Notes under the pieces: model-generated
Seen by the model: only the letters and a program-made list of their open reading frames with translations
Databases searched by the model: none
What the model was told of the DNA's origin: nothing
Translations under genes and position numbers: made by a program
Part shown: positions 6,480 through 64,000 of the stretch, piece by piece
Position numbering within the stretch: the stretch's first letter is position 1
Layout of the letters: the number at the start of each line of letters is the position of its first letter
Assembly (NCBI GenBank): GCA_016935315.1
Contig: JAFGRD010000028.1
Location: 62,001-126,000, forward strand
DNA: 64,000 bases
Direction: 5' to 3'
From: Pirellulales bacterium
Lineage (GTDB): Bacteria; Planctomycetota; Planctomycetia; Pirellulales; Thermoguttaceae

Positions 6480-6582
6480 TGTTGACGTCTGCATGGCGAA
6501 TGAGCAAGGCCGACCAACGGGAGGCCGGAGAAACCGGGATCCCGTGGATCGCCCTCGCGCACTGAATGTGCAAATGTCAATA
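6480..6582 (+). mobile_element. 103-bp hairpin element, copy A (full length)
   Basis: An imperfect whole-length palindrome. The left tip is TGTTGACGTCTGCAT, the right tip reads TGTCAATA, and the middle contains CGACCAACGGGAGGCCGG facing CCCGTGGATCGCCC. It lies in the leader of trpS, ending 36 bases before the ATG. Five full copies in the window share the 102-103 bp length and layout. Orientation + is defined as the tip TATTGATGTTTGCAT being on the left. Confidence 0.85.
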
Positions 6583-7598: not shown

Positions 7599-8465
7599 AT
7601 GGACCACCAGCGCACCACATGCGACGATCAACCGGCACGCAGCGGCGGACCGTTTGCCTGGGCGAAGCTCGCGTTCTGGCTGCCGGCGTGCCTGGGGTTG
7701 GGCCTCATGACGGCTTGGATGGCCGCGGTGGCAGAAGGCTATTTCGCGCCGTTTCTCATTTTTCCCTTGCTGGTGGGCGTTGGACTGGGCGCCATGGCCG
7801 TCGGCCTGGTGCGTGTAAGCCAGACCGGACACCGGCCGACCGTGCTGCTGGGGACCGTGCTGGCCGTGGCCGCGACGGTCGTGGGCCAGCACTACTTCAG
7901 CTATCGGGCCGTCTGGGAGGCCTACAACGCGAACGCGGCGACCATCGAAAGGGCCCGGCGACTGTTTCCCGATGACTTGCAGGACCGTCTGGCGGCTCCA
8001 CCGCCGAATCTGGTCGCGTTCCTGCGGGAAGAAGCCGCCCGAGGGCGTCCCCTGCCGGGTGGCTACTCGGGACGGGGCAAGGGCGTTTGGGCAAGCTGGG
8101 CGGTCGACGCGTTGTTGGTGCTGGGGGCGACTCTGGCCATGGTGATTCCCGCATTGCGGCAGCCCTATTGCAGTCGGTGCGGAAGCTGGTATCGTGTCAC
8201 GCGCAGCGGTCGAATCGACGTATCGACCGCCCGGCGACTGGCCGAGATCGCCGAGGTCACACCGGTCGAGGAGTCGAGGGTGGCGCGCTATCGGTTGCGC
8301 AACTGCAACGGGGGCTGTGGCCCGACGGAATTCGAGCTATCCTGGGACGAGTCGCCCAAGGGAACGACGCGTGTTCGGAGTTGGCTCGACGTCGACCGCC
8401 GCAACCGAATGACCGAGGTGCTCGATGAGATCGGCGCCGTCGGCCACGAGGAGGGTGTCTGTTGA
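7599..8465 (+). CDS. Membrane protein with C-terminal CxxC pairs, unknown function
   Basis: 288 residues. Three hydrophobic stretches near residues 23-50, 53-72 and 80-98 and another around 168-186 predict about four membrane spans. After the last span a soluble C-terminal part has CSRCGSWY and, some 50 residues later, CNGGCG, a likely zinc-ribbon-like pair. I do not recognise the family. It starts 11 bp after trpS and may be co-transcribed. Its TGA stop (8463-8465) lies inside the tip of hairpin element B, so the element may have cut or reshaped the original C-terminus. Confidence 0.75.
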   Translation: MDHQRTTCDDQPARSGGPFAWAKLAFWLPACLGLGLMTAWMAAVAEGYFAPFLIFPLLVGVGLGAMAVGLVRVSQTGHRPTVLLGTVLAVAATVVGQHYFSYRAVWEAYNANAATIERARRLFPDDLQDRLAAPPPNLVAFLREEAARGRPLPGGYSGRGKGVWASWAVDALLVLGATLAMVIPALRQPYCSRCGSWYRVTRSGRIDVSTARRLAEIAEVTPVEESRVARYRLRNCNGGCGPTEFELSWDESPKGTTRVRSWLDVDRRNRMTEVLDEIGAVGHEEGVC

Positions 8466-8562
8466 CGCTTGCACACGCAATGCGCGGGGGCGATCAACGG
8501 AAACCCTACTTGCCGGACCTTCGGGTGGTCGGCTTTGCTCATTCGCAATGCAGACATCCATA
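8460..8562 (-). mobile_element. 103-bp hairpin element, copy B (full length, inverted relative to A)
   Basis: On the plus strand it begins TGTTGACGCTTGCAC and ends ATGCAGACATCCATA, the reverse orientation of copy A. Its first bases supply the stop codon of the upstream membrane-protein gene. The internal arms are more decayed than in other copies (GCGATCAACGG facing GGGTGGTCGGC). With copy A it frames trpS and the membrane-protein gene as a 2.1-kb unit with inverted ends. Confidence 0.8.
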
Positions 8563-37662: not shown

Positions 37663-38134
37663 AGTCAGCAGCTACGGCCTCGGATTCCGACGCGTTTTAT
37701 TGACGCCTTTGACTGAGACTTATACGCACGGTGCCCGCGTTCTTGCGATCGCCGAAATAGTGCCGGGGGATTGGGGATGATTGATGTTTGCATGGTGAAT
37801 GATCCAGGCCGGCCAACGGGAGGCCGGACAAGTCGGGCTCCCGTTGGTCGCCCTCGCGCATTGAGTGTGCAAGCGTCGACAGGCACCTCGACTTTCCCCA
37901 CCCCTATCGTACCGAGATTTTGGCAGGGCAGCAATTGTCGGCGGGCGGCCGGGAGAGACACTCGGACGGTTCATCGACGTGTGCACAGTCGATGCGCAAG
38001 GATCGATAAACCGCGGACAACGGCCGTGATTGACAAAACGGCGCCGCTGAGGGACGATAGTTGAGTCGCGGCCGGTTCTGTCGCACCCGTCCAGTTGGAA
38101 CGAATAAGCCGATTCGAAGGAAAGGGAGCCCACG
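37663..38134. other. Divergent intergenic region with hairpin element D
   Basis: About 470 bp between the histidine kinase and the aldo/keto reductase genes. Its main content is hairpin element copy D (37780-37881). A stray TATTGACGC at 37698-37706 resembles an element tip but is too short to call. No promoter stood out. Confidence 0.5.
37780..37881 (+). mobile_element. 102-bp hairpin element, copy D (full length)
   Basis: The left tip ATTGATGTTTGCATGGTGAA and right tip GTGTGCAAGCGTCGACA mirror each other, and the inner arms CGACCAACGGGAG-like (here GGCCAACGGGAG) and CTCCCGTTGGTCG pair almost perfectly around GCCGGACAAGTCGGG. One of the best-preserved copies. It lies between divergent genes. 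Confidence 0.88.
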
Positions 38135-39454: not shown

Positions 39455-40006
39455 ATGTCTGCCTCATGGAATCGAGCCGTCGCCCAAGCGTATCTATTGT
39501 GCGTTGTGCTGCCGGCGGCTATCTGGTCGCGACCGACAAAGACCTGAACGAGACCCACGATGTCTTTCCTTGCCTCGACGCCGACAGCGGGCGGCAGCTC
39601 TGGAAGCTCAGCTATCCGGCGGCCGGCGAGGTGGATTTCACCAACTCGGCCCGCGCCAATCCGGTGGCCGGTCGTCCTCGACTCGGTCGTCGTGGGAAGC
39701 TGTGAACGACTGATCTGTCTGGACCTGGACGATGGCCTCGATATGCTCTGGGACGTCGATGAGGGGCCTTTCGATGCCTATTGCAGTTTCATCGCGGGCG
39801 GAGGGCGCGTCCTGGCCGTGACGCAGGGCGGCCAGCTCTGCCTGTTCAAGGCCGCCAAGAACGGGTTTGCCTGTATCGCCACGCTCGATCTTTTCGACGA
39901 CCTGCCCGATACCGAGCGCGACGTCTGGTCGCATCTCGCGCTGGTCGGCAACCGGCTCTATGTCCGCAACATGCTGGGGGTCTACTGCTTCCTGATGCAT
40001 TACTGA
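39455..40006 (+). pseudogene. PQQ-like beta-propeller relic with two frameshifts
   Basis: An ATG at 39455 opens a signal-peptide-like stretch (AYLLCVVLPAAIWS), which hits a stop at 39545. A second frame carries ATDKDLNETHDVF and CLDADSGRQLWKLSYPAAG, and from about 39665 the first frame resumes with PVVLDSVVVGSCERLICLDL and ends GNRLYVRNMLGVYCFLMHY. Joined, these read as blades of a PQQ/BamB-type propeller (D-x-GRQLW repeats). The two shifts compensate each other. At under 200 codons it is far shorter than a full propeller, so it is probably decayed or deleted internally. Its TGA stop lies in a 23-bp miniature of the hairpin element. Confidence 0.6.
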
Positions 40007-40086: not shown

Positions 40087-43000
40087 TCAGAACAGCCCAA
40101 GCACTTGCTCCAGTACCAGCAATCCCCCGACGCCGCCGAACGGCACGGCGAGGGCTCCCAGCAGCGGGTCTCTCGTGATCGGGCAGAACGCACCTTGCTC
40201 TTCGTTGCTGACCTCCGCAATGATCTGCTCGATTTGCCTGCTGCGTTTGGTGGTCTGGTCCGTGGTGGCCTCCGCCAGACGGTCGTTCAGACGCCCCAGG
40301 ACGGCCTGCCGGGCCTTGCCGGCTTGCAGGCGTAATATGATCGCGCACAGGACGGCCCCGGAGAGGTTTAAGGTCACCAATACCAACAAGGGCCACGACA
40401 GACCCCAACCGTCGAAGACCGGATGCCTCGACAGGATCAGCAGGAGCACCACGATGCACGGGGAATACATCAGCTTTCCGACCACGGCGGTGCGCGCGGC
40501 GATCAGGCGGATGCCCAGCAACTCGCTCAGGTCGTCCTCGTCGGCCGCCTTCCGCCGCTCGCGAACGGCCCGGATGCCCTCGGGCGGCCAGGAGGGCGTC
40601 GTGCCGGCGAGCTTCCTGAGGAGCTTCTCGCAAATCCGCGTGGCGTCGAGCACAAAAAAGACCAGCGTGATCATCACCAGGACCGCCCCTATGGTTACCC
40701 CAAACGCAGTTCCATGGGAGAGGTCGCCGCGGGACGGCACATGAGGAAAATCGGTGAGCAGGAACAGCGAAACGCCGAACAGGAGGTACGCGGCCGTAAA
40801 CACTGCGATCCGCGCGCCACGGCACCACCACCACTCCTTCCGCAGACACTGCCGGTAGAGCCGCTTCGCCGGCAGCACCGCTTTCTTTCTCGGCCAATGC
40901 AACACGCGGGTCCTACGCCAGAAGACCATCAGCCACGGCACCCACAGCCAGCCATGACGCCGCTGTGTTCGCGTCCACACGCGAGGCTTCCGCCACCTTT
41001 CAAACTTTTGTTTGGGAATCCCGAAATAGTCCCGGCAGATCTCACGGTCTTTCCTCTTCAGCCGCTGCGCGCCTTGGTAGAACAGCATCAAGCCAAAAAC
41101 GCCTGCGGCGAAGCGCAGCAGCGTCGAGGGCCAAACGCTGATTCCCCCGAACAGCAGAAACGGCTCGCCACCGATCCCGACGTGATCGTAGATCGCCAGG
41201 GCTACCAACACCATGGCGGCCAGCACCACGACGAGGAAGAACCATTCCTCCAGCGTCGGTTTGCCCCGGAGAAACTTTGGGATCCAATCGGGCCGATAGG
41301 GCTTGGCCGGTCGCCAAACAAACCGCACGGCGCACCACGCCAACTTGCCGGCCGCCTTGCCAGCCGCCACCGTCACGGCGTGGACCGGCCGGACGTGGGC
41401 CGACAGACACACGCCGATGCCGAAGGTCGCGAGGACACACAAGAGGACCCGACCCAGGAGAAGAAGCCAGGGCCGCTCCTGCGGGCTGATCGGGTGGATT
41501 GCGGTGCTGAGAGAAAGCTGCGGGGGCGGGCCCGTTTCGGGGCTTCCGTCGCGGCCTTCGACTTGCGAGCTCTGGCTGCGGTCTTCGACGCCCGAAAGCC
41601 CTCCCGTGCGGGTGAGCTGATAGGGCCCTTGCCTGCCGATCTCGAAGACCAGCGGACGCAGACACCGCCGGGCGTCGCTGCACGTTCTGCCGGCATCGCC
41701 GTTGGTGCACCACGGGTCCCAGCGCGACTCCCCCGGCAAGGCCCGGAGTGCCCTGGGATCCTCCAGCGCCAACAACGTGGCGAGGAAGGTGGCGGTCTGG
41801 TAGCTGTCGCGGAAGGGCAGCACGTCGCGCTGCAGCCGCTCGTGAAGCCGAAGGCCGAAATGCGAGGCAACCAGGAGGTTCTGCGTATAGGGGTACTCTG
41901 GGGCGTGGGCGAAGCCGGCCTCCAGATCGGTGGTGAAGAACCACGCACACGGGAAGTGTCCGGCCAGCGCGCGCAGGATGAGCAGCTTATCGTAGAGGTC
42001 GGTGCCCAACACGCCGATGGCCGTAATTTTGCCTCCGTTCTGGCGATGGAGCTCATCCGAGAGCTCGATGATCTCCTGCCGCAGGCGTCGAAGATAATCG
42101 AGCTGGCTCCGGCCTTTCGGCGCGTCGCGGCTGGACGTCTCCGGTCCGCCCTCGGCGGGACCATCGGAAGGGGCGCCGCCGGGCAACATCCCATCGATGC
42201 CGCGGAGGTACTGGAAAACGTGCAAGTTGCGTGGGAAAGAGGTCCTCTGTCGAAACGTCTCCGGCAGCGCACGGCCGTAAAGTGTATCCCGCTCCGTGAG
42301 CAACACGATGTTCCGCTCGGGGTTCTTCGGTGTCGGAAACGCGCGCCGCAGCTTCAGCTCGTCGCACAACGCACCAACCAACTGCCGATCAGTGCCGACG
42401 GCGCGGATCAGCGTGATGCCGCACGGCAGAACGCCCTCGACCAGATCCAGTGGTCGGCGGCCGTCTTTCTTGGGGGCCAGGATCTCGGGCGAAATCGTGG
42501 CCCGCGGTGAGAAGAGCTTCGCCGTCTGGCGGGCGACCTGTTCCGAGTCGATGCGCTCCCAGATGTCGGACTCGTCGGCCATCTGTAGCAGCGTGTCGGA
42601 GGCGGTCGGCCCCAGGATGCTCAGGCGAATGTGTTGCAGGCAGTCGCCCGGGAACAAGCGACACATGATCTGGACGATGGCGTTCACCGGGCGGTCGCCC
42701 AACTGTGCCTCGTTGAGCCAACACAGCAGCACGCCGCCGAAGGGCTCAGCCTGTGTGTTCGAGTGTTCGTTCGCGTCCCGATCGGCGTTCCAGATAGGAT
42801 CGGGACGGTAGAGCTTGACCGGCACGAGGATCGCATCCGTGATCGGCTGCCGCATGACGGCGAAATCGGTCGTGACCTCCAACTTCACGTAGCTCATTCG
42901 CGTCCCGAGCGAGAGTCTGTAGCGACACGCCCCCAGCGCGGCCAGGACGGCGTAGCGGGTCCGCATCCGCTGTTCCTTGTCTTCGGCATAGGGCCCGCCC

Positions 43001-43353
43001 GGCACCAGGATCGGCATGAAGAGCAACTGGCCGTTGCCCTGTGACGTGGTCGCGTCGACGATCTGGTTGAAATCTCCCCGAAAGACGGGGCACTTGTCGG
43101 ACGAGGGATCGCGGTACACGGCTTCCAGCGGATCTTCCCACAACCTCGCGAAGACGGCGCCGATTTCCCGCGTCGACCGCGGCGGTGGCTCGTTGGGTGC
43201 CAACTCGTCGCGTTGCGGGGTCGCCTTGGGGCGCGCGGTCCTCAAAGGCGCTTCGTAGGTCATGTAGGCGTAGCAGGCCAGCAAGGCCACGAACAGACTG
43301 GGCCAGAGCAGGCCCGACTGCGGCTTGGCATTGGATTCGCGGCGTTCGTCCAC
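40087..43353 (-). CDS. Large uncharacterised membrane protein with extracytoplasmic domain
   Basis: 1088 residues from GTG 43353 behind GAGAGGG. One span near the N-terminus (about 15-32) is followed by some 590 extracytoplasmic residues, then about seven more spans from 628 to the C-terminus with basic cytoplasmic loops. The outer domain contains alternating strand-helix segments such as ITAIGVLGTDLYDKLLILRAL and PCAWFFTTDLEAGFAHAPEY followed by NLLVASHFG, which look like a Rossmann or periplasmic-binding-type fold. Other well-ordered segments are LLTERDTLYGRALPETF and FQYLRGIDGMLPGG. I do not recognise a named family. It could be a receptor or a transport-like protein. It diverges from a Ser/Thr kinase gene 500 bp away. 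Three 15-bp tandem repeats sit in its leader. Confidence 0.75.
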   Translation of the reverse strand: MDERRESNAKPQSGLLWPSLFVALLACYAYMTYEAPLRTARPKATPQRDELAPNEPPPRSTREIGAVFARLWEDPLEAVYRDPSSDKCPVFRGDFNQIVDATTSQGNGQLLFMPILVPGGPYAEDKEQRMRTRYAVLAALGACRYRLSLGTRMSYVKLEVTTDFAVMRQPITDAILVPVKLYRPDPIWNADRDANEHSNTQAEPFGGVLLCWLNEAQLGDRPVNAIVQIMCRLFPGDCLQHIRLSILGPTASDTLLQMADESDIWERIDSEQVARQTAKLFSPRATISPEILAPKKDGRRPLDLVEGVLPCGITLIRAVGTDRQLVGALCDELKLRRAFPTPKNPERNIVLLTERDTLYGRALPETFRQRTSFPRNLHVFQYLRGIDGMLPGGAPSDGPAEGGPETSSRDAPKGRSQLDYLRRLRQEIIELSDELHRQNGGKITAIGVLGTDLYDKLLILRALAGHFPCAWFFTTDLEAGFAHAPEYPYTQNLLVASHFGLRLHERLQRDVLPFRDSYQTATFLATLLALEDPRALRALPGESRWDPWCTNGDAGRTCSDARRCLRPLVFEIGRQGPYQLTRTGGLSGVEDRSQSSQVEGRDGSPETGPPPQLSLSTAIHPISPQERPWLLLLGRVLLCVLATFGIGVCLSAHVRPVHAVTVAAGKAAGKLAWCAVRFVWRPAKPYRPDWIPKFLRGKPTLEEWFFLVVVLAAMVLVALAIYDHVGIGGEPFLLFGGISVWPSTLLRFAAGVFGLMLFYQGAQRLKRKDREICRDYFGIPKQKFERWRKPRVWTRTQRRHGWLWVPWLMVFWRRTRVLHWPRKKAVLPAKRLYRQCLRKEWWWCRGARIAVFTAAYLLFGVSLFLLTDFPHVPSRGDLSHGTAFGVTIGAVLVMITLVFFVLDATRICEKLLRKLAGTTPSWPPEGIRAVRERRKAADEDDLSELLGIRLIAARTAVVGKLMYSPCIVVLLLILSRHPVFDGWGLSWPLLVLVTLNLSGAVLCAIILRLQAGKARQAVLGRLNDRLAEATTDQTTKRSRQIEQIIAEVSNEEQGAFCPITRDPLLGALAVPFGGVGGLLVLEQVLGLF

Positions 43354-43365
43354 CGTTCCCTCTCA

Positions 43366-43410
43366 GTCAGCAGGGGCTCGGTCAGCAGGGGCTCGGTCAG
43401 CAGGGGACAG
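43366..43410 (-). repeat. Three 15-bp tandem repeats in the leader of the 1088-residue protein gene
   Basis: GTCAGCAGGGGCTCG occurs at 43366-43380 and 43381-43395 exactly, and at 43396-43410 with the last bases changed. The array ends about 12 bases before the GTG start on the minus strand, just upstream of the ribosome-binding site, so it lies in the mRNA leader or promoter. Confidence 0.8.
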
Positions 43411-43509
43411 CCTGGCCGCAGGGAACTGTCTCTTTCGTGGTGCCTCCGCAGCGCTCCGCTGCACCCTCGTCAGACATCTTCAGGGGCCTGCTTGCTTCGA
43501 CAGAGAGTC

Positions 43510-43612
43510 TATTGACGCTTGCACACTCAATGCGCGAGGGCGACCAACGGGAGCCCAACATCTCCGGTCTGCCGTTGGTCGGCCTTGATCATTCACAATG
43601 CAAACATCGACA
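43510..43612 (-). mobile_element. 103-bp hairpin element, copy E (full length, inverted)
   Basis: On the plus strand it begins TATTGACGCTTGCACACTCA and ends ATGCAAACATCGACA, with CGACCAACGGGAG and GCCGTTGGTCGGCC as inner arms. It is inverted relative to copy D; between D and E lie the aldo/keto reductase, the propeller relic and the 1088-residue protein genes. The rest of the 500-bp gap (43354-43855) holds the 15-bp repeats and nothing else I can name. Confidence 0.85.
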
Positions 43613-43855
43613 GATGCTTATAGCACCTCCTCGGTCCAACGCAATACCCCGCTTAGGTGGATTTCGTGGCGGTCGCGCGCTGACCAACGGGACCTCGGCC
43701 CAATGGTGACGGATGGGCGGCGAGCGACGACCCTCCAGGCAGCACCCGGTCCCGATTCGGCGAAGGATAGCTGCAACGGGGTCTGCCGATGGGCCATGGT
43801 CTTGGTGGCGAAAGAGAGTTAGGATGAAAGGGGTATTCGCATTTGGGACAACGGC

Positions 43856-45742
43856 ATGGGCATCGACCGGCTTGGACCTTATCAGATCGTTGGCACTCTG
43901 GGCCGCGGCGGCATGGGGACCGTCTATCAGGGCGTTGACCGACAGACCGACGCGCCGGCCGCCGTGAAGCTGTTGTCGATTGCGTTGGCGACGGAAGAAG
44001 GATTCCGCAAGCGGTTTGCCGGCGAGATCGAGACCCTGCGGAAGCTGAACCATCCGAACATCGTCCGACTCTACGGCTTCGGCGAACAGGACGGTCTGCT
44101 CTTTTACGCCATGGAACTGGTCGACGGCAGCAGCCTGGAACAAGAACTCGCACGGGGGCGGCGATTCGACTGGCGCGAGGTGACCCAAATCGCCATCGAA
44201 ACCTGCCGGGCGTTAAGGCATGCACACGACCGCGGCGTGATCCATCGCGACATCAAGCCGGGCAACCTCCTGCTGGCGGCCGACGGCCACGTGAAGCTCT
44301 CCGATTTCGGCATCGCCCGGCTGTTCGGCGGCAGCGCCGTTACCCACGCGGGCAACGTGCTGGGGACGGCCGAGTATATGGCGCCGGAACAGGCGGCCGG
44401 ACAGCCGGTGGGCCTCCGAGCCGACCTGTACAGCCTCGGCGGCGTGATGTACGCGCTGTTGGCCGGCCGGCCCATGTTTCGTGCGAAATCGCTGCCCGAC
44501 GTTCTGCACAAGCAGCGGTTCGAGAAACCCGATCGGGTCGGCAGACACGCCCCCGACGTCCCCGCCGTGCTCGAAGAGATCATCGGCCAGTTGCTCGAGA
44601 AGGATCCGGACCGCCGGGTGCCCAACGCGACCATCCTGGGACGCCAACTGGAGGCGATGCAGCACGGCTTGTCGCTGGCGGTCGAAACGGTCGACGCGGA
44701 TCCCGATGTCCTTAGCGGCCCCCGCAGCGCCGCGGTCGCACCGCCGTCGCCGCCGGACTCGTCGGAGGTCGACCAGTCGGCCGTCACACGGGGCATGGGC
44801 GACAGTGGCGAAGGGCAGCCTTCCGTGACCGCCTCGTGGCCGACTCCCCCTGCGCCCGCCGACGAGGAGGTGCCCGACACCAAGCCCACGTCGTCCGGCG
44901 ACGCTCCCGACGGCCCGCAGCCCATCTCGCCCAGCGACGCGCCCCACGACGCGAAACCCACCGAGGAGCCGGAACCGCGCACGCATTTCACTCCGGTTGC
45001 CGCTGAGGAACTGGATCGGCCCGCGGAGGTTCGCCACCACCCGGCATGGATCTCGCCACAGACGTGGGCATTGGCCGCGGGCCTGATCGCGGTGGGTCTG
45101 ACGGTCTGGCATTTTCTCCAGCCGCCTTCGGCCGACGACCTGCATGAAACGATCGCGGCCCATGCGCGCGAGGGAACGATCGAGTCGCTTCTGCAGGCGG
45201 AGGACGAGATCGAAACGTTCCTGCGGTTGCATGCCCGCGACTCCCGCTGCCGCCAGTTGCGCCAGTACGAAACGGAGATCGAATTGTATCGGTTGGAGCA
45301 GAAGTTCCGGTTGCGTGCGAAGGGACTCGCTAGCACCGACCGCATGCTGCCGATCGAACGGGCCTACCTCGAAGCGATCAACTACGTCCGGCTGGACCCC
45401 GAGCGGGCGATGGCCAAGCTGGAGGCGTTGCTCGAGCTGTACAATCACCGGCACGACATGACGGGCCCGACCGGCAAGTGCCTCGAACTGGCCCGTCGCC
45501 GGCTGGCAAGCCTTCGCGAACAGCTCGATCCCGAGATGGCCCAGCATCTGGCGCTGGTGCAAAGCCGCCTCCGCGTGGCCGACGAGCTTCGCCAGAGCGA
45601 GCCGCAGCGCGCCCGGGCGATGTACCGGGCCGTGATCGAGCTTTACCAGGACAAGCCCTGGGCCGCCGACGCCGTTCGCCGCGCCCGGCAGGCCCTGACC
45701 GAGGGGTCAACCCAACAGAAAACGGATCAGATGGATCGCTGA
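43856..45742 (+). CDS. Membrane-anchored Ser/Thr protein kinase (PknB/Hanks type)
   Basis: 628 residues. The kinase domain (about 7-270) is complete: GRGGMG 16-21, Lys38 in AVKLL, HRDIKPGN 130-137, DFG 150-152, MAPEQ in the APE position. A Pro/Ser/Asp-rich linker (about 285-395) leads to one membrane span (about 402-420). The C-terminal 200 residues are helical and charged with TPR-like character (YLEAINYVRLDPERAMAKLEALLELY; AMYRAVIELYQDKPWA) and would lie outside the cytoplasm. It lacks PASTA repeats. It diverges from the 1088-residue membrane protein and precedes hemB. Substrates are unknown. Confidence 0.94.
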   Translation: MGIDRLGPYQIVGTLGRGGMGTVYQGVDRQTDAPAAVKLLSIALATEEGFRKRFAGEIETLRKLNHPNIVRLYGFGEQDGLLFYAMELVDGSSLEQELARGRRFDWREVTQIAIETCRALRHAHDRGVIHRDIKPGNLLLAADGHVKLSDFGIARLFGGSAVTHAGNVLGTAEYMAPEQAAGQPVGLRADLYSLGGVMYALLAGRPMFRAKSLPDVLHKQRFEKPDRVGRHAPDVPAVLEEIIGQLLEKDPDRRVPNATILGRQLEAMQHGLSLAVETVDADPDVLSGPRSAAVAPPSPPDSSEVDQSAVTRGMGDSGEGQPSVTASWPTPPAPADEEVPDTKPTSSGDAPDGPQPISPSDAPHDAKPTEEPEPRTHFTPVAAEELDRPAEVRHHPAWISPQTWALAAGLIAVGLTVWHFLQPPSADDLHETIAAHAREGTIESLLQAEDEIETFLRLHARDSRCRQLRQYETEIELYRLEQKFRLRAKGLASTDRMLPIERAYLEAINYVRLDPERAMAKLEALLELYNHRHDMTGPTGKCLELARRRLASLREQLDPEMAQHLALVQSRLRVADELRQSEPQRARAMYRAVIELYQDKPWAADAVRRARQALTEGSTQQKTDQMDR

Positions 45743-61100: not shown

Positions 61101-62072
61101 CGTCTCCAACAGGTCGAGCTTCTCAGGCGCCACCGCTTTGCCATCGACCGAGAGCCGCACTCCGCCCTCGACGAGCGGTCGGATCATCGGCCCCTGCCCC
61201 CAGCAGACCGTTACATCCGACCATGTCCCCGTATTTGGCGTCAGTGTGTAGGTAAGCGTCCCGTCGCTGCCGGCGTACTTGAAGACAAAGCAATCGCCGT
61301 CCCGTGTCACGGTGATCCGGAAGTCTTGGACAAGATTGTCGGGGAGGATCGTCTCCGGCCTGGTCGGGAACGGCAGGATATCCGGCCCGGTGTTGGTCCC
61401 ACTGCCCTGGCCGGGAAACATGGCGATCCCGCGATTCGGGCGCGCCTCGAAGGTCAGCGGGGGAAACTGCTCGGTGAAGACCGCCAAGTTGTCGAAAAAC
61501 AGCACACGATCCTCTTTGTTCCGCCCGTTGGCAATGTCCAAGCCCACGAAGCTCGCTCCGTCCTTTACCATCGCGATCTGCTCGGGAGTCAGACGCCGGC
61601 TGCACAGGAACCACTGCTCCCAAGTCACGGTGGTCAGCGGCACGTTCACTGGGCGGCCCTGTGCGTCAAGGAATCTCGCCGTGATCGACACCATCGGCGT
61701 GCTCGCGTCGGGGGCGTACGACCAGTTGTTGCCGTACACCCACAGGCTCACCGCATCGAACGGCTGCGAGATCTTCAGCGGATGAGGCGGTGCAATCCGA
61801 TAAGTCGGTCCGCCGTTGGTGGCGCGGTAGGTGAACTTGGCGACGTACGTGCCCCACAACCGCTGCTCGCGCGTGCGGACGATGCTGGCCGCGGAGTCGG
61901 CGGTCTTCACCGTCCAGCCAGCCATGTCCTCGAAATCCACCAACGGCGGGTGATCGTCCCGCAACCGGTTTGCCCAGTCCATTTCATAGGGCCGCTTGCC
62001 GACCGTCCCATCGGCCCCACAAGCGGCAGCCACGAGTGACAACAGCACGAACAGGCCAATGGGGATTCGCAT
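58188..62072 (-). CDS. Large secreted protein, putative glycoside hydrolase of unrecognised family
   Basis: 1294 residues. The signal MRIPIGLFVLLSLVAAACG could be a lipoprotein type (AAAC is a poor lipobox). Residues about 45-200 look like a carbohydrate-binding sandwich (VDFEDMAGWTV, AVSLWVYGNNW, VLFFDNLAVF). A middle beta-rich part leads into a barrel-like region with many aromatic and acidic residues (NIRRHGMHQCVITDHETGWRD; FRFSTAYCDVHTAVAPWDRVD; GPVYSEGNHHFYYSG), reminiscent of GH101-type or DUF5696-type retaining enzymes. The C-terminal 180 residues resemble an NPCBM domain (FGTTLGHVISRSVACGG; VRIELVSDVG). Catalytic acids were not identified. It starts 12 bp after the GH172 stop. Confidence 0.65.
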   Translation of the reverse strand: MRIPIGLFVLLSLVAAACGADGTVGKRPYEMDWANRLRDDHPPLVDFEDMAGWTVKTADSAASIVRTREQRLWGTYVAKFTYRATNGGPTYRIAPPHPLKISQPFDAVSLWVYGNNWSYAPDASTPMVSITARFLDAQGRPVNVPLTTVTWEQWFLCSRRLTPEQIAMVKDGASFVGLDIANGRNKEDRVLFFDNLAVFTEQFPPLTFEARPNRGIAMFPGQGSGTNTGPDILPFPTRPETILPDNLVQDFRITVTRDGDCFVFKYAGSDGTLTYTLTPNTGTWSDVTVCWGQGPMIRPLVEGGVRLSVDGKAVAPEKLDLLETRLEDQKVISRWKASAENVSTEVTYTFRLRNKSLVIDTVSPGGNVAEVRYGHAEGLDDPRLVTNPFYHYGDQATDRPAVAISGSADKPLFLTGNTDWYLSNASVPFSANAVKDGRTSYQGGVRYIHKTDGKRNDCFERFFVTLSPRYEEVLPTLPNPKSPYMHITGTHVWRAHGAGNRKNDAAYWTNIRRHGMHQCVITDHETGWRDGGESFTFRTKAAPGKGGDQGQYAYARLMQDELGFVYGPYNNYTDFAPVNEFWSFDLISRTPDNQLQGAWMRCYAPKPARAVEYCAKLAPIIQEKFRFSTAYCDVHTAVAPWDRVDYDRRVPGAGTFAATFYSYGEIMLHQKNAWKGPVYSEGNHHFYYSGLTDGNYAQDRGYDIPNNPWLVDLDLRKMHDLDCNFGMGSESMFYSKHTPRAAGREGKDAYTDRFLAATVAFGHPGFLCSGGMDKTLRGYYLIQQLAGNYTLSPVKSIGYLDETGRLLDTSTAVASGAFRRNQIVTEYANGTVTMVNGNSTERMKHGDWDLPPNGYSGQTQDRSVFVASTDSGPGTPRYDYCISPAYIYIDGRGHFTRQDQAASDGIGICRVVGERHWEIISYQGADCGFKLPPAKAVAMDKGCREIGPAALRVSRGLTYVVPVEGAFSYLLTAATAEPLVPALRPDLRDRVIAGETVPVTLGKEHTVQIPADAKPGQRIWQVLEGQWLDFTVVPLADVEPTLVGTHLNLRLRSNLAQQATYRVEVLGQTKEAEVIPDRPMEATFDLGPPTGESAERLAITLRVGQLTQKIEWGLRTACKPLILVALPTHYDTGMCVRGGRETDDFGTTLGHVISRSVACGGASKQAVFMHPPYRGHVGYTFAMYDAVTLPKDQPAAFRAVVGKADGSDLADGILYELAVIDASGARTVVAERTVSRHEWLPIEANLSKWGGQKVRIELVSDVGKQDNSSGDWACWAEMRIESLQPVLQRTLELR

Positions 62073-63897: not shown

Positions 63898-64000
63898 TAT
63901 TGATGTTTGCATTGTGAATGATCCAGGCCGACCAACGGGAGGCCGGACAAGTCTGGCTCCCGTTGGTCGCCCTCGTGCATTGACTGTGCAAGCGTCAATA
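63898..64000 (+). mobile_element. 103-bp hairpin element, copy G (full length, at window edge)
   Basis: The most symmetrical copy: left tip TATTGATGTTTGCATTGTGA, right tip CTGTGCAAGCGTCAATA, inner arms CGACCAACGGGAG and CTCCCGTTGGTCG, a perfect 13-bp pair. It ends exactly at the last base of the window. Several left/right differences are C/T changes that would still pair as G-U in RNA. Confidence 0.9.

Follow-up and report, generated by a model that had tools for sequence, protein, structure and literature searches.

The 64,000-nucleotide window analysed here (positions 62,001 to 126,000 of contig JAFGRD010000028.1, assembly GCA_016935315.1, of a Pirellulales bacterium) encodes a 1088-residue membrane protein which, as judged largely from structural models, is probably a bacterial inner-membrane chemoreceptor whose periplasmic Venus flytrap domain gates an ion channel with the fold of the seven-transmembrane ion channels (7TMICs), to which the insect gustatory receptors (GRs) and odorant receptors (ORs) belong. 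We infer a periplasmic ligand-gated ion channel as the most likely function. The gene and the parts of its product are located in the window as follows.

40087..43353, minus strand: whole gene of the putative 1088-residue membrane receptor, GTG start (open reading frame (ORF), long relatives and AlphaFold2 model)
43261..43305, minus strand: N-terminal membrane span, residues 17-31 (helix in the model; hydrophobic in 73 of the 73 rows of the family alignment A2, described below)
41599..43041, minus strand: outer domain with the type-1 periplasmic-binding (Venus flytrap) fold, about residues 105-585 (VIA-align)
41350..41472, minus strand: re-entry span after the outer domain, helix 628-668, running from outside to inside (full-length model; hydrophobic in 73/73 rows)
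40093..41253, minus strand: seven-span 7TMIC-like domain, residues 701-1087, spans S1-S7 (VIA-align and topology)
40093..40167, minus strand: S7b, presumed to line the pore, residues 1063-1087 (position in the model and analogy with S7b of insect GRs and ORs)

The ORF is a genuine gene and not a chance frame, because long relatives without internal stops occur elsewhere; such stops were absent from all listed matches to the protein in other genomes except one weak match (G250). The positions of the ORFs bear out the original prediction, which had described a 1088-residue membrane protein divergent from a Ser/Thr kinase. Its further statement that the protein belongs to no named family holds for the sequence libraries, since searches of Pfam, NCBIfam and PADLOC (E ≤ 1) and of PDB sequences (E ≤ 10) gave zero matches, but not for the outer domain, which can be placed by its fold among the type-1 periplasmic-binding domains. 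A Pfam scan of eight other family members also gave nothing above the curated cut-off. Conservation within the family was read from alignment A2, which, like alignment A4, holds the window protein and 72 of the 80 named loci (L064-L143), these being the best 80 of 159 stretches found to encode a relative; they are loci, not genomes, and not an unbiased sample. The eight loci left out (L069, L070, L092, L108, L133, L135, L136 and L142) were cut by a contig end, had split or truncated frames or had no family ORF called. Identity to the window protein across the 73 rows of A2 was 23-36%.

The outer domain can confidently be assigned the type-1 periplasmic-binding fold on the strength of the Foldseek and VIA-align matches of its model, and the support for this is strong. 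In the full-length AlphaFold2 model (pLDDT 81.9, pTM 0.84) the alternating strand-helix segments that had been described for this domain are seen over about residues 32-627, and the structure prediction and fold search that had been proposed for it, once run, returned a confident flytrap match. With Foldseek at E ≤ 1e-3, 27 out of 27 matches of the full-length model were flytrap proteins or flytrap-carrying receptors, and with VIA-align residues 102-585 matched LivK (3td9; Z 21.3, 305 aligned residues, root-mean-square deviation (rmsd) 3.7), AmiC (1pea; Z 19.2) and the urea-binding UrtA (7s6f; Z 18.3), the Z values ranging from 16.6 to 21.3 across the 50 rows shown. The model quality over the flytrap exceeds 90 pLDDT in many blocks and is 45-75 in some. 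Four residues are conserved in A2, namely S252 (70/73), T286 (72/73), Y359 (71/73) and D476 (69/73), and the flytrap motifs GP..S, S..AT and YG occur in the same order as in periplasmic-binding proteins. We take these residues, as a lead only, to lie in the motifs that bind amino-acid ligands in this fold, the ligand-site positions being presumably the Ser of GP..S, the Thr of S..AT, the Tyr of YG and an acid of the second lobe. The two-lobed fold is common to the family, to type-1 periplasmic-binding proteins (LivK, AmiC, UrtA) and to the flytraps of metabotropic glutamate (mGlu) and plant glutamate-receptor-like proteins; unlike the type-1 periplasmic-binding proteins, the family flytrap is covalently joined to a multi-span membrane part and has no Pfam profile match. 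That the membrane protein senses a signal from outside, as had been suggested, is supported, because the fold of its outer domain binds small molecules.

The membrane character of the protein was predicted correctly, but the count of about eight spans was not, as nine were found, one N-terminal and eight following the outer domain. Among the spans of the seven-span unit, S1-S6 are hydrophobic in 72-73 of the 73 rows of A2 and S7b in 68/73. The three inner loops of the unit are on average 51.5-76.2 residues long with 15.5-16.1% Lys and Arg, and the figure for the inner stretch preceding S1 is 19.5%. For the three outer loops the mean lengths are 15.0-20.1 residues, and Lys and Arg make up 2.3-9.0%. 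The N terminus of the unit is thus predicted inside and its C terminus outside, with good support from these positive-inside loop counts. The model helices 877-917, 939-961 with 963-974, 987-1031, 1035-1049, and 1063-1072 with 1075-1087 fit the order S4, S5, S6, S7a and S7b, as judged from the helix limits and the spans, S7b consisting of the last two short helices; S1 and S3 are 25 residues long, S2 37, S4 41 and S6 45.

Passages of the study that delimits the 7TMICs (PMC9998090) name seven spans, an N terminus on the inner side, inner loops longer than the outer ones, TM4-TM6 that project and a split TM7, together with a Dali Z above 10 to Orco 6C70-A, whereas negative controls among those given in these passages have Dali Z of at most 4.0; the protein PHTF has Dali Z 11.8-12.9 and TM-scores of 0.62-0.63 (PMC9998090). 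The topology predicted here comprises seven spans, the N terminus inside and the C terminus outside, longer inner loops, long cytosolic projections of TM4-TM6 and a TM7 divided into 7a and 7b. For BmGr9, S1 and S3 are described in passages of PMC11100771 as confined to the bilayer, while S2, S4, S5, S6 and S7a reach into the cytosol. The helix pattern of the model fits this description, and S6 has 45 residues in both proteins.

The membrane part was also modelled alone from the 73 rows (pLDDT 80.4, pTM 0.77), and the insect receptors dominate the fold matches of this model. Insect GRs fill the first nine VIA-align rows, led by Gr43a (8jm9; Z 11.7, rmsd 5.6 Å, 295 aligned), whose match covers model residues 73-467, that is, residues 694-1088 of the protein. 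Among the first 24 VIA-align rows, 20 are GRs, ORs or Orco with matches ending at model residue 462-467 of 467, and 13 of the first 14 Foldseek rows are likewise GRs or ORs. In the full-length model, predicted separately from the same family rows, Gr43a stands at Foldseek rank 43 (E 0.019, prob 0.98). Training of the AlphaFold2 weights predates the release of the first 7TMIC structure (Orco, August 2018), which makes it unlikely that the 7TMIC-like fold was copied from training. In these models the membrane part has a probable, not a proven, 7TMIC fold.

Several results weigh against a flytrap-gated channel of this fold. The VIA-align Z of 11.7 lies below about 13, the value under which the tool itself advises caution with helical bundles, and the match to Orco (Z 10.4, rmsd 5.4, 265 aligned) is a VIA-align and not a Dali value and is equalled by designed proteins, which reach 10.5: the other four of the first 24 rows have titles that read as designed helical proteins, with Z of 10.1-10.5 in the same list. 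Foldseek gave zero matches of the membrane model at E ≤ 0.001, the GR and OR rows of the top 14 having E of 0.065-0.80 and query TM-scores of 0.23-0.34, below the values published for PHTF. The Pfam 7tm_7 profile had no match in the genome of the bacterium itself, and the seven PDB sequences matched in a profile search with the 73 rows included no GR or OR. Two spans precede the seven-span unit, beyond the seven of a 7TMIC, and the short N-terminal segment adds nothing to the positive-inside argument, because it is more acidic (17.9% Asp and Glu) than basic (14.1% Lys and Arg). On the flytrap side, an hhalign comparison with periplasmic-binding proteins fell short of significance (probability 0.7%, E 0.087), the motifs being in register; its template was built from six rows of the own and related genomes, which represent five different proteins (L146 equals L147, and L150 supplied no row).

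With scores of this size, the protein may instead be a flytrap receptor with an unrelated helical-bundle membrane part, which would signal conformationally to cytosolic or membrane partners and conduct no ions. We give this a lesser though appreciable probability. The designed helical proteins score almost level with the GR and OR structures, the TM-scores are about 0.3 with a best Foldseek E of 0.065, and partners could dock at the inner segments 765-849 and 905-956. Yet GR and OR structures dominate both fold-match lists of the membrane model, the topology, the long S4-S6 and the split S7 fit the published description of 7TMICs, and the matches of the designed proteins, four in the first 24 VIA-align rows, begin no earlier than model residue 158 and thus take in neither S1 nor S2. 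Translocon-associated protein gamma, the best match of the PDB-sequence profile search (E 0.018), was taken as a chance helix match, and viral structures gave nothing for the membrane model at E ≤ 0.001; the best-looking viral row (BFVD A0A1V0SCD1, from the giant virus Catovirus) is weak (prob 0.47, TM 0.28, E 1.0).

The order of the Foldseek list for the full-length model, headed by rows for mGlu, a class C G-protein-coupled receptor (GPCR) and sweet-taste receptors, raises the further thought of a bacterial class C GPCR-like receptor with a flytrap and a seven-transmembrane signalling bundle. This appears very improbable. The full-length class C rows have an rmsd of about 31-33 Å over about 1000 columns, and the two domains therefore do not superpose together; eight spans with an outer C terminus are predicted after the flytrap, whereas the class requires seven and a cytosolic C terminus; and the first GPCR for the membrane model stands at Foldseek rank 29 (E 2.1, prob 0.09). 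Among the 50 VIA-align rows shown for the membrane model there is no GPCR of class C or otherwise and no ionotropic glutamate receptor, which is not in itself an exclusion. Ionotropic glutamate receptors and class C GPCRs also join an outer type-1 flytrap to a membrane signalling part, and are thus comparable in how they work, but the predicted topology of the family protein differs from that of class C GPCRs.

The 7TMICs (Gr43a, Gr9, Gr64a, odorant receptors, Orco, PHTF) are the best fold matches of residues 694-1088 and have in common with them the seven spans beginning inside, the long cytosolic S4-S6, the split S7 and the predicted outer C terminus. In contrast to the 7TMICs, whose ligand site lies inside the helix bundle, the family would bind its ligand presumably in the added outer flytrap, and it is bacterial, has two extra spans and shows a low TM-score. 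In the passages of PMC9998090, the Dali screen, which took in 47 species, is stated to have yielded no Orco-like protein from prokaryotes, and a review, in the part considered (PMC11526382), cites Himmel et al. 2023 for evidence supporting a eukaryote-to-prokaryote transfer of 7TMICs. A literature search returned no title or abstract describing a flytrap joined to a 7TMIC, the paper of Himmel et al. 2023 (Curr Biol), which may list the family, lying outside that search, and the novelty of the flytrap-7TMIC family is provisional.

For the flytrap-gated channel, the following mechanism can be proposed. An N-terminal anchor would hold the type-1 flytrap in the periplasm, where it would close around a small polar ligand, an amino acid, urea or amide being a guess at its type. 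The chain would then re-enter the membrane and continue into the seven-helix domain with the channel fold of insect gustatory and odorant receptors, in which S1 would run from inside to outside, S2, S4, S5 and S6 would project far into the cytosol, S7 would be split and the C terminus would lie outside. On closing, the flytrap would push against conserved outer loops, chiefly S1-S2 and S5-S6, and thereby open a pore that S7b would line, probably within a tetramer, so that ions could flow. The tetramer, the pore, the ligand, the gating and the ion flow are all inferred. The most conserved segments of the membrane part are the outer loops S1-S2 (2.76 bits) and S5-S6 (2.55), followed by the S5 span (2.39), S7b (2.37) and the turn preceding S7b (2.36); the S3-S4 loop and the cytosolic end of S5 are intermediate (2.16 each), and S1 (1.11) and helix 628-668 (1.13) are the least conserved. 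A flytrap acting on the outer loops and an S7b-lined pore would be consistent with this pattern, as would other readings.

The family is patchy, as 286 of 296 genomes sampled from the order gave no match, and has full-length members in five bacterial phyla. In tallies that each include the own genome, the 1088-residue protein matched 3 of 60 relatives and 10 of the 296 genomes of the order, and an eight-row alignment (A1) matched 18 of 392 genomes of the phylum; in a collection of 84,980 species, 174 stretches fitted the pattern, of which 159 encode a relative. Long members were observed in Planctomycetota, Nitrospirota, Pseudomonadota, Verrucomicrobiota and Nitrospinota, with a possible sixth group represented by a single truncated Desulfobacterales contig (L108). 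Plasmids gave one match only, weak and partial (13% of the query), in Methylosinus. By record title, nitrifiers supply 45 of the 80 named loci (23 from Nitrospira, Nitrospirales or Nitrospirae; 17 from Nitrosospira, Nitrosovibrio, Nitrosomonas or Nitrosomonadaceae; 5 from Nitrotoga, Nitrococcus and Nitrospinaceae or Nitrospinia) and methanotrophs 16. Together these make up 61 of the 80, which is a marked ecological skew, though the sample is itself not free of bias. A 24-row group with support 100 in the FastTree tree (78 rows) includes eight Nitrosospira and Nitrosovibrio rows, the remainder being 15 Nitrospirota rows and L121 (labelled Nitrosospira); the nesting of these rows within the Nitrospirota group suggests that the family gene was transferred among nitrifiers, with paralogy and mislabelled bins as alternatives. 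Frames with an HZS_alpha domain (817-831 residues) were observed in 5 of the 7 family-holding genomes of one planctomycete genus (g193; G376, G427, G458, G520 and G655), as expected of anammox bacteria; the domain is not specific, with 29 matches in the own genome too.

The surroundings of the gene in the window contain two further features.

43856..45742, plus strand: divergent Ser/Thr kinase, 628 residues (PF00069, E 1.4e-53), a neighbour and probably not a functional partner
43511..43608, no strand assigned: copy of a dispersed 98-nt repeat between the two genes (repeat comparison)

The two genes are separated by 502 bp. It had been proposed that kinase and membrane protein might sense a signal together, and their divergent arrangement, seen again in a Verrucomicrobiaceae bin where a kinase (L122:7589-8896) lies 708 bp from the family gene, would suit this. 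The proposal is not supported: when co-occurrence was checked with phmmer, the kinase domain serving as query (E ≤ 1e-3) against the 1253 ORFs called in the window and 88 related loci, the only matches were the kinase of the window itself and that of L122. One of the 80 named loci thus has a kinase close to the family gene, and no other was found there or in the other related loci scanned; where a family ORF was called (78 named loci), flanks of 3 kb or more were available on either side in 53. A dispersed repeat also separates the two genes in the window, and it is very improbable that the kinase and the membrane protein form a two-gene sensor module. The original prediction had named as grounds for its rejection a confident match to a transporter or enzyme family and an unconserved kinase pairing; the pairing is indeed unconserved and a fold match is confident, but it is to a ligand-binding fold, not to a transporter or enzyme. 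The repeat, roughly 98-107 nt, partly self-complementary and intergenic, has copies at 6481-6578, 8452-8558, 37780-37877, 43502-43608 and 63899-63996 of the window. In the own genome 453 candidate places were found, and of 40 scored, 40 matched at 94% identity or more, giving 69 matches with both strands counted. The bordering element noted earlier is thus real, but the accessory module it was thought to delimit is unsupported and was rejected, because the element is a dispersed, high-copy repeat.

The immediate same-strand neighbours of family members are varied. A Pfam scan covered 57 of 58 such adjacent genes (one with a run of N was omitted) and, with 25 of 80 families shown, cannot by itself exclude a kinase. 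Adjacent same-strand hydrolases in five neighbourhoods, L079 (identical to L009; a trypsin-subtilase fusion), L031 (a subtilase, then a trypsin and a trypsin-nuclease), L109 (a subtilase), L076 (a patatin) and L091 (an alpha/beta hydrolase), would suit a receptor of a protease or lipase conflict system that triggers neighbouring trypsin, subtilisin, patatin or alpha/beta-hydrolase proteins. As a general account this is improbable, since Peptidase_S8 occurs in only 3 of the 57 adjacent genes and the six scanned window neighbours other than the kinase include no protease or lipase; a link to such a system in some lineages is possible. At the planctomycete loci L009:10003-14642 and L031:11570-17162, family members stand beside a trypsin/hydrolase/subtilase fusion or a hydrolase-like/subtilase protein and a further trypsin, with a trypsin-nuclease fusion also encoded in L031, and the clusters resemble conflict systems. 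In six Nitrospira-type loci (L065, L066, L068, L111, L112 and L121) a related small gene of 269-313 residues lies directly downstream on the same strand; the single one scanned resembles TPR-type repeats (ST7, E 6.9e-6). In the window, a 148-residue ORF (39560-40006, plus strand) reads like the end of a beta-propeller protein, has no convincing Pfam match and is possibly a gene remnant.

Returning to the flytrap-gated channel, we put forward only tentatively, as less than an even chance, that there is a widespread bacterial family of flytrap-gated 7TMIC channels, in which a ligand trap of the glutamate-receptor type is coupled to the pore of insect taste and smell receptors. It would be concentrated in nitrifiers, methanotrophs and, probably, anammox planctomycetes, and given its diversity the 7TMICs may have a long history in bacteria, not just a recent one by transfer from eukaryotes. 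If true, this would add to bacteria a little-known kind of ligand-gated channel and a third coupling of a flytrap to a membrane part, besides glutamate-receptor channels and class C GPCRs. It would provide the 7TMIC channels with a ligand domain that is soluble and with a bacterial model in which gating is tractable, would bear on the origin of the 7TMICs, and would give nitrifying bacteria a candidate electrical chemosensor.

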